The notes beneath the pieces were generated by a model. The model saw only the letters and a list, made by a program, of their open reading frames with translations. It searched no databases and was not told the origin of the DNA. The position numbers and the translations under genes are program-made. Positions 20,914 through 25,735 of a stretch of 64,000 nucleotides of DNA are shown here, one piece after another. This stretch comes from a gamma proteobacterium symbiont of Taylorina sp. (GTDB lineage: Bacteria > Pseudomonadota > Gammaproteobacteria > GRL18). The DNA is taken from contig JAHXIV010000037.1 of NCBI GenBank assembly GCA_025655455.1, positions 186,001 through 250,000 on the forward strand. The letters run 5' to 3'. Every line of letters begins with the position of its first letter. Positions within the stretch are counted from its first letter, which is position 1.

Positions 20914-23064
20914 ATGACCGCACAATTACATGCCATACCCAATACCGTCACAGAAATTCCACTTCAGGATGCCTCTTTAGATATCTGGAATACTAAATAC
21001 CGTTTAAAAACCAAGGACGGTGATGCAATCGATAATAATATTGATGAAACCTATCAACGAGTTGCCAGAGCATTATCAGATGTTGAACAGGGCAAGAAAA
21101 ATCAGGATCGATATTATAAAGAATTTTTATGGGCATTACGTCAGGGTGTGATTCCAGCCGGTCGTATTATATCTAATGCAGGCGCACAGGAACATAAACC
21201 TGCAACATCCACTATTAACTGCACTGTCTCTGGTGCTATTAGCGATTCAATGGATGATATTCTGGGTAAAGTGCATGAGGCAGGCCTCACTCTAAAAGCC
21301 GGTTGTGGTATTGGTTATGAGTTTTCTACTTTGCGTCCTAAAAATGCTTATGTATCCGGCGCAGGTGCCTACACATCCGGTCCACTTTCCTTTATGGATA
21401 TTTATGACAAGATGTGTTTTACCGTCTCCTCTGCAGGCGGTCGCCGTGGCGCACAAATGGCAACCTTTGATATTGGCCATCCTGATGTGATTGATTTTAT
21501 TCGTGCCAAACGGGAGGATGGCCGTCTACGTCAATTCAATCTTTCCCTGCTGATCACCACAGAGTTCGTAGAAGCGGTTAAAAATGATGGAAACTGGTCA
21601 CTTTCTTTTCCTGTCACTGAGAAGGAAATTAAAATAGATAATATTGATATCAATAATATTGAGCAGGTTACCTGGCGTGATTTGCCCAATAAGGATGGAT
21701 ATATTGTCAACAACGATGGGCTGGTTGCTTGTCGTGTTACAAGAACTCTTCAGGCTCGTCGTTTGTGGGATATCATTATGTCCTCCACCTATGATTATGC
21801 TGAACCCGGTTTTATTCTCATTGATAAAGTCAATGAAATGAATAACAACTGGTTCTGTGAAAATATTCGTGCCACTAACCCCTGTGGTGAACAGCCATTG
21901 CCACCCTATGGCAGCTGCCTGCTAGGTTCAATTAATCTAACTCGTTTTGTTGATAAACCCTTTACCTCTGAAGCCAGTTTTGACTGGGATTCCTATCGTA
22001 AAACTATCGGTATTTTTACTCGTATGCTGGATAATGTTGTAGAAATTAATGGACTACCATTAGAACAGCAGCGTGAAGAAATTACCAACAAACGCCGTCA
22101 TGGTATGGGTTATCTTGGGCTGGGATCTACCTGTACCATGCTGGGTATGAAATATGGTGACGAGAATTCATTAGCACTCACTGAAGACGTGACCAGAGTC
22201 ATGGCCATCGAAGGCTGGAAAGCAGGTTTAGAGCTGGCTAAAGAAAAAGGTCCTGCACGGATTATGGATCAGATGTTTACCGTAACAGGTGAAATGTTAC
22301 ATAAACGTCCTGAAATGTTGACGGACGGCCTTAAAATCGGTGATGAAATTCCAGGAAAGATTTTACATGCAAAATACAGTCGCTATATGCAGCTGCTGGC
22401 TAAAAAAGAGCCTGAGTTAGTTGCCGCACTGGCAGAAACCGGTGCCCGCTTCACCCATCATAGTTCTATAGCACCCACAGGCACCATCTCACTCTCTCTG
22501 GCTAATAATGCCAGTAACGGTATTGAACCCAGTTTTGCACACCATTATTCCCGTAATGTCATTCGTGAAGGAAAAAAGACCAAAGAGAAAGTTAATGTTT
22601 TTTCTTTTGAACTACTGGCCTATCGTGAAATGGTAAACGCGAATGCCATGCCTTATTCCGATAAAGCCGAAGAGCAATTACCTGATTATTTTATTACCGC
22701 AGACAGTATTTCACCCAAGCAACATGTTGATGTACAGGCAGCCGCTCAGAAGTGGATTGATTCATCTATATCCAAAACAGCCAATATACCTACCGATTAT
22801 CCCTATGAAGATTTTAAGGATATTTATGAATATGCTTATGATAAAGGTCTAAAAGGCTGTACGACTTTCCGTTTTAATCCAGAAGCATTTCAGGGTGTAT
22901 TAGTCAAGGAATCTGATCTTGAAAACACCACCTACCAATTTACTCTGGAAAATGGTGAAACGATTGAATTAAAAGGAAATGAAGAAGTTGAGTATGACGG
23001 TGAAACACATTCAGCAGCCAATCTTTTTGATGCTTTAAAAGAAGGTTACTACGGAAAATTCTAA
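20914..23064 (+). CDS. nrdJa: Cobalamin-dependent class II ribonucleotide reductase, catalytic subunit
   Basis: This 716-residue protein is the catalytic barrel of an adenosylcobalamin-dependent ribonucleotide reductase, which makes deoxyribonucleotides with or without oxygen. Visible motifs are TSTINCTVSG (one of the redox cysteines), LKAGCGIGYEFSTLRP, SSAGGRRGAQM, the finger loop NPCGEQPLPPYGSCLLGSINL with Cys and Glu, and SIAPTGTISL. The C-terminal redox cysteines that normally regenerate the site are missing here and sit in the next gene, as in the split NrdJa/NrdJb of Pseudomonas. NrdR-like boxes lie upstream. Confidence 0.94.
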   Translation: MTAQLHAIPNTVTEIPLQDASLDIWNTKYRLKTKDGDAIDNNIDETYQRVARALSDVEQGKKNQDRYYKEFLWALRQGVIPAGRIISNAGAQEHKPATSTINCTVSGAISDSMDDILGKVHEAGLTLKAGCGIGYEFSTLRPKNAYVSGAGAYTSGPLSFMDIYDKMCFTVSSAGGRRGAQMATFDIGHPDVIDFIRAKREDGRLRQFNLSLLITTEFVEAVKNDGNWSLSFPVTEKEIKIDNIDINNIEQVTWRDLPNKDGYIVNNDGLVACRVTRTLQARRLWDIIMSSTYDYAEPGFILIDKVNEMNNNWFCENIRATNPCGEQPLPPYGSCLLGSINLTRFVDKPFTSEASFDWDSYRKTIGIFTRMLDNVVEINGLPLEQQREEITNKRRHGMGYLGLGSTCTMLGMKYGDENSLALTEDVTRVMAIEGWKAGLELAKEKGPARIMDQMFTVTGEMLHKRPEMLTDGLKIGDEIPGKILHAKYSRYMQLLAKKEPELVAALAETGARFTHHSSIAPTGTISLSLANNASNGIEPSFAHHYSRNVIREGKKTKEKVNVFSFELLAYREMVNANAMPYSDKAEEQLPDYFITADSISPKQHVDVQAAAQKWIDSSISKTANIPTDYPYEDFKDIYEYAYDKGLKGCTTFRFNPEAFQGVLVKESDLENTTYQFTLENGETIELKGNEEVEYDGETHSAANLFDALKEGYYGKF

Positions 23065-23158
23065 TCCATATAAAAGCAATTAATCAGGAGCCATTTGCAC
23101 CTAAAAAAATTGGCATATTAAACTCCGACTCAAAACTAGTATTTAAAGGTTATCAACC

Positions 23159-23854
23159 ATGGCATTAAAAATAAAAAATAAAATTGTCGGCTATAAAGTT
23201 CTGACAGAAGAAGATAAAGAAGAAGTTAAACAATCTAGTAACGATGATACCATTGCAGACGTTGAAAGTATGCATGAAAATCTGACTCGTCCGGAAATGT
23301 TATTTGGTTCAACTTATAAAATTAAAACGCCGCAATCTGAACATGCACTCTATATTACCATCAATGATATGATTCTGAATATGGGCACAGAACATGAAGA
23401 ACGTCGTCCTTATGAAGTATTTATTAATTCCAAGAACATGGAACACTTCCAATGGGTGTTAGCTTTGACCCGAGTTATCTCGGCCGTCTTTCGTAAAGGT
23501 GGTGATGCCTGCTTTCTGGTGGAAGAACTAAAAGCCGTATTTGACCCAAAGGGTGGTTATTTCAAAAAAGGCGGTACCTTTATGCCTTCCCTTGTCGCTG
23601 AAATTGGCTGTGCCATTGAATCACATATGAAATTCATTGGTATGCTCAAAGAGCATGAGCTGGATGAGCATCAGAAAAAACTCATCGCATCAAAGCGAAA
23701 AGAGTTTGAAGAAAAAAACAAAGCCGTAGAAGACGATACGGATAATAATTTCCCGGAAAAAGCACAGCTCTGTACTAAGTGCCAAACAAAGGCACTGGTT
23801 CTGATGGATGGTTGTATGACATGTCTTAATTGCGGTGACAGCAAATGTGGTTAG
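23159..23854 (+). CDS. nrdJb: Class II ribonucleotide reductase, C-terminal subunit
   Basis: The 231-residue protein matches the C-terminal part of class II reductases that is encoded separately in Pseudomonas as NrdJb. It contains the TSCPD-like domain (about residues 75-165, with the Cys in GGDACFLVEEL) and a C-terminal Cys cluster, LCTKCQTKALV and GCMTCLNCGDSKCG. This should act as a swinging thiol arm or zinc ribbon that re-reduces the active site of NrdJa. It starts 94 bases after nrdJa on the same strand. Confidence 0.9.
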   Translation: MALKIKNKIVGYKVLTEEDKEEVKQSSNDDTIADVESMHENLTRPEMLFGSTYKIKTPQSEHALYITINDMILNMGTEHEERRPYEVFINSKNMEHFQWVLALTRVISAVFRKGGDACFLVEELKAVFDPKGGYFKKGGTFMPSLVAEIGCAIESHMKFIGMLKEHELDEHQKKLIASKRKEFEEKNKAVEDDTDNNFPEKAQLCTKCQTKALVLMDGCMTCLNCGDSKCG

Positions 23855-23993: not shown

Positions 23994-24503
23994 ATGGAAA
24001 TAGAAGGCTATAAAATACTGGAAAAAGTGGGTGAAGGGGGGATGGCTGTCGTTTATAAGGGCTACCAACTCTCATTAAAAAGACCCGTTGCTATCAAAGT
24101 TCTTACCCATACATTCACTGATCAACCTGACTTTATTCAGAGATTTGAAAAAGAATCTCTGATTATTGCACGCCTGAGTAATCCATTTATCATTCCCGTG
24201 ATTGAAAGAGGGATCAGCAGGGAAGGTATTCCCTATTTTATAATGGAATACGTCGGAGGTCACGAACTCAGTGACATTATGGACAGAGGCAAACTGGAGT
24301 TTAACCGAAAATTAGATATTATTGTACAAATTTGTAAAGCCCTATCTTATGCTCATCGCAATAACGTGGTACACCGTGATATTAAGCCCGCCAATATACT
24401 CATCGATATAGAAGGTATGTACGTATCCTGGATTTTGGCATTGCACAATTTTATGACGATGATAAAGACAAGCAGCAACAAAATAATAACCAGACAAAAG
24501 TAG
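23994..24503 (+). pseudogene. Ser/Thr protein kinase, N-terminal part before a frameshift
   Basis: This is the first part of a Hanks-type kinase. The glycine loop VGEGGMAVVYKG, the Lys of VAIKVL and the catalytic loop HRDIKPANILID are intact. After ILIDIEG the frame fails: the expected DFG strand is encoded one frame over. Reading TATGTACGTATCCTGGAT from 24416 gives YVRILDFGIAQF, so a single base appears to be missing at about 24415. The annotated end at 24503 is out-of-frame sequence. With the second part the intact gene would encode about 580 residues. Confidence 0.85.
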
Positions 24504-24511
24504 GAACCATT

Positions 24512-25735
24512 ATGGGCACAATGGCCTACATGTCACCAGAACAAAGACGTTCAGCAACAGAAGTGACGTTTAAAAGCGATCTCTACTCCCTGGGTATATT
24601 AATGTATAAATTATTTACCCACCGGGATCCCATTGGTCGATTTAAAGCACCTGATGAACTGGAACAGGAGATCCCTCATAACTTAAGCCAGATAATACTG
24701 CAATGTCTTGAAACAGAGGCTGAAGACAGACCTGCATCCGCCAATGAAATAAAAGATACCTTATTACTTATTTTGCGTGGGGCACATTTACAAACAGAAC
24801 AAAGGGAGCGAGTTCAAAAAGACTTTAAACAATTTGATCTGCTGGATGTCATCAGTGAAAATAAATATAGCTCCGTTATGCTGTTTCAAAACCGTACATC
24901 AAAAAAATTAATTATCATAAAAAAAAGAACCATTGGCGATGCAGGTTTTGAAGAGGCCAAATTATTGACCTCATTAAAGCACCCTAATATTCTCAATATT
25001 CTGGGGACTTCAAATAATCAACGTTATTACATTATTGTGATGGAGTATCTCAAGGGTGGAAATTTACAGGAACGTCTTGTTCAGACAATACAATGGAGAA
25101 ATTTTATACCAATGGCAAAGGAAATTGCCACAGGTTTAGCTTTTGCTCATAAAAATCGTATTGTGCATGGTAATCTGCGTCCTGTTAATATCCTGTTTAA
25201 TGAAACAGAACAGATTAAGCTAACAGACTTTAATCTGGAAGAACATTATATAAAAAGTACACCCAAAAATAACTGGTATCGTCTAAAAAATGAACAAAGC
25301 TCTGTCAGACAGGATATTTTTTCAATTGGAGTGATCTATTATCAGATGCTTGTCGGTAGTATTCCTGTACTATCTGATCAAACTTTTTTGTTAAACAAAA
25401 CGTTTAAACAATTACCGCTTAAACTTCAGCAATTAATTGCCAGCATGCTAAAAATTATTCCTCAGGAACGTATTGATAATTTTTCACTGGTACTGAGTCA
25501 ATTGGATGACATTATGACAGAAGCGAATATGACTCTTATTTCACCCAAAAAAATGACTAAAACTAAAAAGCGATATAAAATCAGCCCGCTACTCTATTCT
25601 ATAATAACGCTCATTTTACTTCTGTTTCTGTTTTATTATTTTGTTGACCTGCAGGAAATACAATATATTATTGAGGATATTTTTTTCCCTCAGGAGACTC
25701 AGGAAGCACCAGTCAATTTTATTGAGTTGCAATAA
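24512..25735 (+). pseudogene. Ser/Thr kinase, C-terminal part: kinase lobe end, pseudokinase domain and membrane anchor
   Basis: The frame is open from about 24416 and continues the kinase with DFG, MGTMAYMSPEQ and the rest of the C-lobe. A second kinase-like domain follows (about residues 108-325 of this piece). It keeps a Lys in the VAIK position (LIIIKKR), but its catalytic loop reads HGNLRPVNIL (Asp replaced by Asn) and its DFG is DFN, so it should be a pseudokinase. A single membrane helix (about 360-382) and a short acidic tail end the protein. The ATG at 24512 is internal and probably not a real start. If the frameshift is a sequencing error the whole 23994-25735 stretch is one gene. 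Confidence 0.85.

Follow-up and report, generated by a model that had tools for sequence, protein, structure and literature searches.

JAK proteins combine FERM and SH2 parts with a tyrosine kinase domain (JH1), which the pseudokinase (JH2) precedes. In a passage of PMC6287396, JH2 pseudokinases are described as carrying HGN for HRD, as presumably inactive, and as binding ATP. In bacteria, seven pseudokinase families have been described (ActPs1-3, GLW, CP1, DYD, and DLHK), with functions given as unknown in the available part of PMC12599244. These are also dead Ser/Thr kinase domains, in many cases followed by a membrane helix, as far as that part goes; the word "tandem" is absent from the text of PMC12599244. 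Plant tandem kinase-pseudokinases such as wheat Yr15, which we compared by description, hold both domains in one chain but are plant resistance proteins. Judging by titles and the starts of abstracts in the open-access literature (subscription papers and preprints lay outside this scope), we recognized no bacterial kinase-pseudokinase chain.

Here we describe such a chain, found in the window, that is, the whole stretch of 64,000 nucleotides that we analyzed from a gammaproteobacterial symbiont of Taylorina sp. Like PknB/Stk1-type kinases (NCBIfam NF033483, Pfam PF00069), the proteins of this family are membrane anchored, and their domain 1 has the same fold and motifs. Unlike them, the family has an added pseudokinase before the membrane helix and just a short tail after it. 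Set against the seven families, as they are described in the available text of PMC12599244, the difference is that an active-looking kinase precedes the dead domain. We lean somewhat toward the reading that these are membrane-anchored bacterial Ser/Thr kinases, ordered kinase, pseudokinase, and one membrane helix, that would be regulated by the pseudokinase, and that the window's copy was recently inactivated or mis-sequenced.

One gene in two reading frames

We observed by ORF calls, tblastn, and Pfam that a single plus-strand gene at 23994-25735 is spread over two reading frames (Table 1). In the first frame, an ORF at 23994-24503 encodes a kinase N-lobe followed by HRDIKPAN. The second frame stays open between 24386 and the stop codon (ORF called at 24512-25735) and contains ILDFGIA, MSPEQ, a second kinase-like domain, and a hydrophobic helix. 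We used two intact relatives of 581 aa as tblastn queries (the second is listed as 582, with one extra leading residue). Both matched the window to 24416 (genome 210416) and resumed at 24422 (genome 210422) in the other frame, an interval one base shorter than the relatives' two codons there. The ORFs and tblastn matches confirm the first-pass annotation, which had read an intact N-lobe, a frame change at about 24415, and then DFG and SPEQ in the other frame. The second kinase-like domain with HGN and DFN and the single membrane helix after it, which it had also proposed, are both present, the former with a Pkinase match of its own. Pfam Pkinase matched the N-terminal piece with an E value of 1.6e-26 and the C-terminal piece, in two stretches, with 1.7e-38; an intact relative gave two matches (E 1.1e-82). 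These matches far exceed chance. Because two species of the genus carry intact orthologues of 581 aa, we read the locus as one protein and not two genes. Ordinary translation in the window's genome cannot give the intact protein; it gives at most an inactive 169-aa N-lobe fragment and a C-terminal fragment from 24512.

Table 1. Features of the kinase gene (positions in the window)
Feature	Position	Strand	Basis
Kinase domain 1, N-terminal part (GEGG glycine loop, VAIK, HRDIKPAN 24372-24395)	23994-24416	+	First frame; Pkinase 1-135 of 263
One-base frame change	24416-24422	+	tblastn pieces end and restart in different frames
Kinase domain 1, C-terminal part (DFG 24431-24439, SPE 24533-24541)	24423-24778	+	Second frame
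Domain 2, predicted pseudokinase (HGN 25166-25174, DFN 25226-25234; without glycine loop or APE)	24779-25513	+	Second Pkinase stretch; motif table
Single membrane helix	25589-25645	+	19-residue hydropathy peak of 2.49
Short acidic C-terminal tail	ends 25732	+	After the membrane helix
Stop codon	25733-25735	+	

We then asked how old the frame change is. The gene has no further stops, where a neutral simulation gave 3.4 new stops expected at 5% divergence and a 4% probability of none. The window's domain 1 is 80-82% identical to the intact relatives in its N-terminal part and 75-81% in the last 89 aa of its C-terminal part. For a test of rates, we divided the window's distances to G012 and G006 by the distance between those two, which carry the gene in one frame (public MAG contigs JADGEK010000041.1 for G006 and JAPHSW010000021.1 for G012; 79% identical to each other, aligned over 581 aa). 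Three parts of the kinase gave ratios of 2.20, 1.88, and 2.20, versus 1.26 to 2.44 for six other genes. For the tail after domain 2, which is poorly conserved (40-49% identity), the ratio was 0.91. Thus, the gene shows no rate acceleration, and selection appears to have acted on it until recently. Because there are no other stops and no acceleration, the frameshift is either a recent event or an error, as the first-pass annotation had held.

We consider the frameshift probably real. A sequencing or assembly error, with the gene intact in the organism, has a smaller though sizeable chance of being correct: the gene shows no other lesion and evolves at the rate of its intact relatives. However, there is no homopolymer of at least three bases at 24400-24432, and another copy in the genus, that of G011, is independently broken (see below). 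Of 62 places tested against relatives in 400 kb of the window's genome, none of the 61 besides the kinase had a one-base frame change (upper bound about 5%), which is weak evidence because the kinase was chosen for being broken. One of the 61 had two in-frame stops, and one gave a two-frame signal resembling tandem copies. A programmed -1 frameshift yielding the full protein is very improbable: the open frames overlap at 24386-24503 and the remaining sequence is conserved, but this overlap has no slippery X XXY YYZ heptamer and two intact relatives read the gene in one frame. G000:C3:88338-89279 (in L099) of the same genome has two in-frame stops compared with an intact G004 ORF at 55% identity and is a possible pseudogene.

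A rare family and a second lesion in the genus

Searches with domain 2 or the C-terminal part of the gene collected 13 members: four from this genus, one from its family, five from two other gammaproteobacterial families, and three from Desulfobacterota. The first-pass annotation had reasoned that homologues all lacking the second domain would speak against it; full-length homologues with both domains exist in related genomes. Wherever a member reads both domains in a single frame, the kinase precedes the pseudokinase. The gene is present in 4 of 16 genomes of the genus, the window's own counted, and the domain 2 search gave no match at member level in the other 12 (the listed completeness is below 90% for five of the 16). 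At the level of the family, one further genome carries it (5/24 in total). A draw of 369 genomes from the class gave five matches better than 1e-80 (the window's own, G132, G248, G159, and G366) and nothing else better than about 1e-40; in a draw of 398 genomes from the phylum, none but the window's own passed E 1e-45. Among 54 genomes of one family, three carry the gene, and G438 was gained as a member. Six of the 19 loci from a GTDB scan are family members, the other 13 being taken as generic kinases; three member contigs are titled Desulfosudis or Desulfobacterium. A plasmid search returned 172 records, generic kinases only, all below 60% identity. The family is rare and patchy in its distribution.

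To follow the two domains, we built a quick tree of 74 kinase domains, omitting kinase matches of fewer than 180 profile positions; some branches elsewhere in it are long. The 11 rows of domain 1 formed one fully supported group and the 13 of domain 2 another, and their subgroups mirrored each other. Because both domains form single groups with matching subgroups, kinase and pseudokinase were most likely fused a single time and are passed on together. We also asked whether domain 2 is a duplicate of domain 1: the two groups stand apart in the tree, but a topology uniting them was not rejected (p-AU 0.417). At 12 loci, no neighboring gene was conserved across lineages, so the neighborhood suggests no partner. 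Three genus relatives share the order kinase, small ORF, greA, and carB, and other lineages have different neighbors; carB of the window's genome is on a different contig. Nearby, at 20914-23854 of the window, the large chain of a ribonucleotide reductase and a TSCPD domain are separate adjoining ORFs (716 and 231 aa).

The second broken copy is in G011, the gammaproteobacterial symbiont of Bathyaustriella thionipta, which we take to be a tubeworm. Its kinase gene is split over contigs C22 and C20. Contig C22 begins with 78 bases (L007 1-78) that match 21 places in that genome, mostly near contig edges, and codons 1-104 are on C20, at its end, and run into sequence found at 20 places (L166 1814-1901). 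The same 8 bases stand on both flanks of the break, as an 8-bp target duplication. The element's ends, which start with GTAA, are inverted repeats matching at 15 of 24 positions; its interior is not assembled on C20 or C22. The duplication and the inverted-repeat ends indicate that a transposed mobile element with roughly 20 copies, possibly akin to the IS66 family, which its ends recall, inserted after codon 104. Thus, two of the four genus copies are interrupted, by different events, which makes a real frameshift in the window more likely. Death of the gene in other strains, which the first-pass annotation had named as evidence against its reading, holds for this one congener; two congeners are intact. 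Since the module suffered two different lesions among four copies and is absent at member level from 12 of 16 genus genomes, it is dispensable in some carriers.

A kinase domain, a dead domain, and a membrane helix

We compared motifs in a joint alignment of 11 domain 1 rows and 13 domain 2 rows. The domain 1 sequences of the window and G011, each in two pieces, were for that reason omitted. VAIK, HRD, DFG, and SPE are found in all 11 domain 1 rows, and the window's copy has all four, over two frames. With the VAIK Lys, HRD Asp, DFG Asp, and SPE Glu present, domain 1 is by prediction a Hanks-type bacterial Ser/Thr kinase of the protein kinase superfamily and apparently a competent one. Structure searches matched it to PknB, PknA, and RAF kinases. 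Scores against the PknB/Stk1 PASTA kinase model (NF033483) were 366.8 for P0004 and 384.8 and 390.4 for two others, below its cutoff of 450, and P0004 scored 253.8 against the MAD6 antiphage kinase model (NF047741; cutoff, 460). In PADLOC, many kinase models matched at once, as any Ser/Thr kinase would.

Domain 2 differs at the catalytic positions. All 13 rows have HGN in place of HRD and Arg at the position of the catalytic-loop Lys, and none has the glycine loop or the APE Glu. The β3 Lys and the HRDxxxxN Asn are each kept in 12/13, the DFG Asp in 13/13, the DFG Gly in 12/13, and the αC Glu in 10/13 (the exceptions are three Desulfobacterota, with Asp or Ser); several rows are near-copies, and this retention reflects descent from few ancestors and not 13 independent events. 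DFN, which the first-pass annotation had given as a feature of this domain, is private to the window's copy, and the other 12 members have DFG. Between DFG and the F-helix Asp, domain 2 has 29 to 30 residues (29 in the window) versus 38 to 47 in domain 1, so the activation loop of domain 2 is shortened. The Pkinase match, the change of the HRD Asp to Asn in every row, and a kinase fold in the structure model together mark domain 2 as a predicted pseudokinase. It has lost the catalytic Asp, the glycine loop, and APE but retains residues that would hold a nucleotide. In G016 (L050 8183-9937), domain 2 has lost the β3 Lys and the HRDxxxxN Asn; therefore, this copy is not expected to bind Mg-nucleotide in the usual manner, and nucleotide binding would not be universal in the family. 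ActPs2 has the same Asp-to-Asn change in HRD, but by its description in the available text of PMC12599244, it has Arg at the β3 Lys and mostly a deletion of DFG, residues that domain 2 keeps as counted above.

A membrane helix was found by hydropathy in 11 of 13 members. The other two, G132 and G248 (L075 7721-9349 and L076 7786-9459), are without one and have short basic ends (FARLRAAVFG and FARLRAAIFG) that could rest on the membrane. In the genus members, Lys and Arg precede the helix and acidic residues follow it. By the positive-inside rule, the basic flank of a membrane helix is inside, which suggests that the kinase domains are inside and the short tail outside. An AlphaFold model of the intact G012 protein had two kinase folds and a helix at 528-550 (mean pLDDT 73), with a pTM of 0.47, so the relative placing of the domains is not fixed by the model. 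Domain 2 modeled alone from a single sequence, with no alignment, had a pLDDT of 42.4. The match lists of Foldseek and VIA-align were filled by domain 1 and hence are silent on the nearest solved fold of domain 2.

Proposed role of the pseudokinase

Domain 1 would phosphorylate substrates at the membrane, and the pseudokinase would act as an in-cis regulator or sensor from the membrane side. The pseudokinase takes the place that, in other bacterial kinases of this type, is filled by a juxtamembrane linker alone. We propose the regulatory role because the pseudokinase occupies this usual linker position and there is no folded outside domain. Most likely, by analogy with the action of JAK JH2 on JH1, domain 2 would hold domain 1 off or on according to whether a nucleotide or a partner is bound. 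The family and the JAKs both have a kinase and a pseudokinase in one chain, with HGN for HRD and nucleotide-site residues kept in the latter. However, the domain order is reversed, kinase first here and pseudokinase first in the JAKs, and the FERM and SH2 parts are absent from the bacterial family. The JAK comparison made in the first-pass annotation is thus strengthened as an analogy by the common HGN, while descent, and any kinship beyond the kinase superfamily, is not indicated.

A rather doubtful alternative to this regulatory role is that the pseudokinase is a scaffold, docking substrates or partners at the membrane without allosteric control of the kinase. YukC/EssB pseudokinases serve as membrane scaffolds (available text of PMC12599244), domain 2 adjoins the membrane helix, and the model leaves the arrangement of the domains unfixed. 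However, a pure scaffold need not retain the β3 Lys and DFG Asp, whose conservation suggests that the nucleotide site still matters. It is highly unlikely that domain 2 is a decaying, functionless kinase: it evolves faster than domain 1 (stem of 1.34 versus 0.72 in the tree; 63-67% versus 80-82% identity between the window and intact relatives, the latter for the N-terminal part of domain 1), but motif losses and kept residues are alike in 13 members across three gammaproteobacterial families and Desulfobacterota, and intact members have no stops.

The family is a possible bacterial test case for pseudokinase control of a kinase; a dead domain fused to its presumed client allows a direct test of whether bacterial pseudokinases control kinases. 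The HGN common to JAK JH2 would mean convergence on one noncatalytic design. As a bolder and tentative proposal, which we think rather unlikely as a whole, a kinase-pseudokinase switch in a single chain, with the HGN of JAK JH2, may have arisen in bacteria separately from that of animals, with a nucleotide-holding dead domain beside the membrane that gates the kinase; this switch would have spread between Gammaproteobacteria and Desulfobacterota and been repeatedly knocked out within one genus.

We also observed neighboring Ser/Thr kinase genes in several genomes of genus relatives (L010, L011, L013, L014, L015, L021, L024, and L025). One kind of these has HGD for HRD. In the tree, these neighboring kinases form a clade of their own, apart from the kinase-pseudokinase family.
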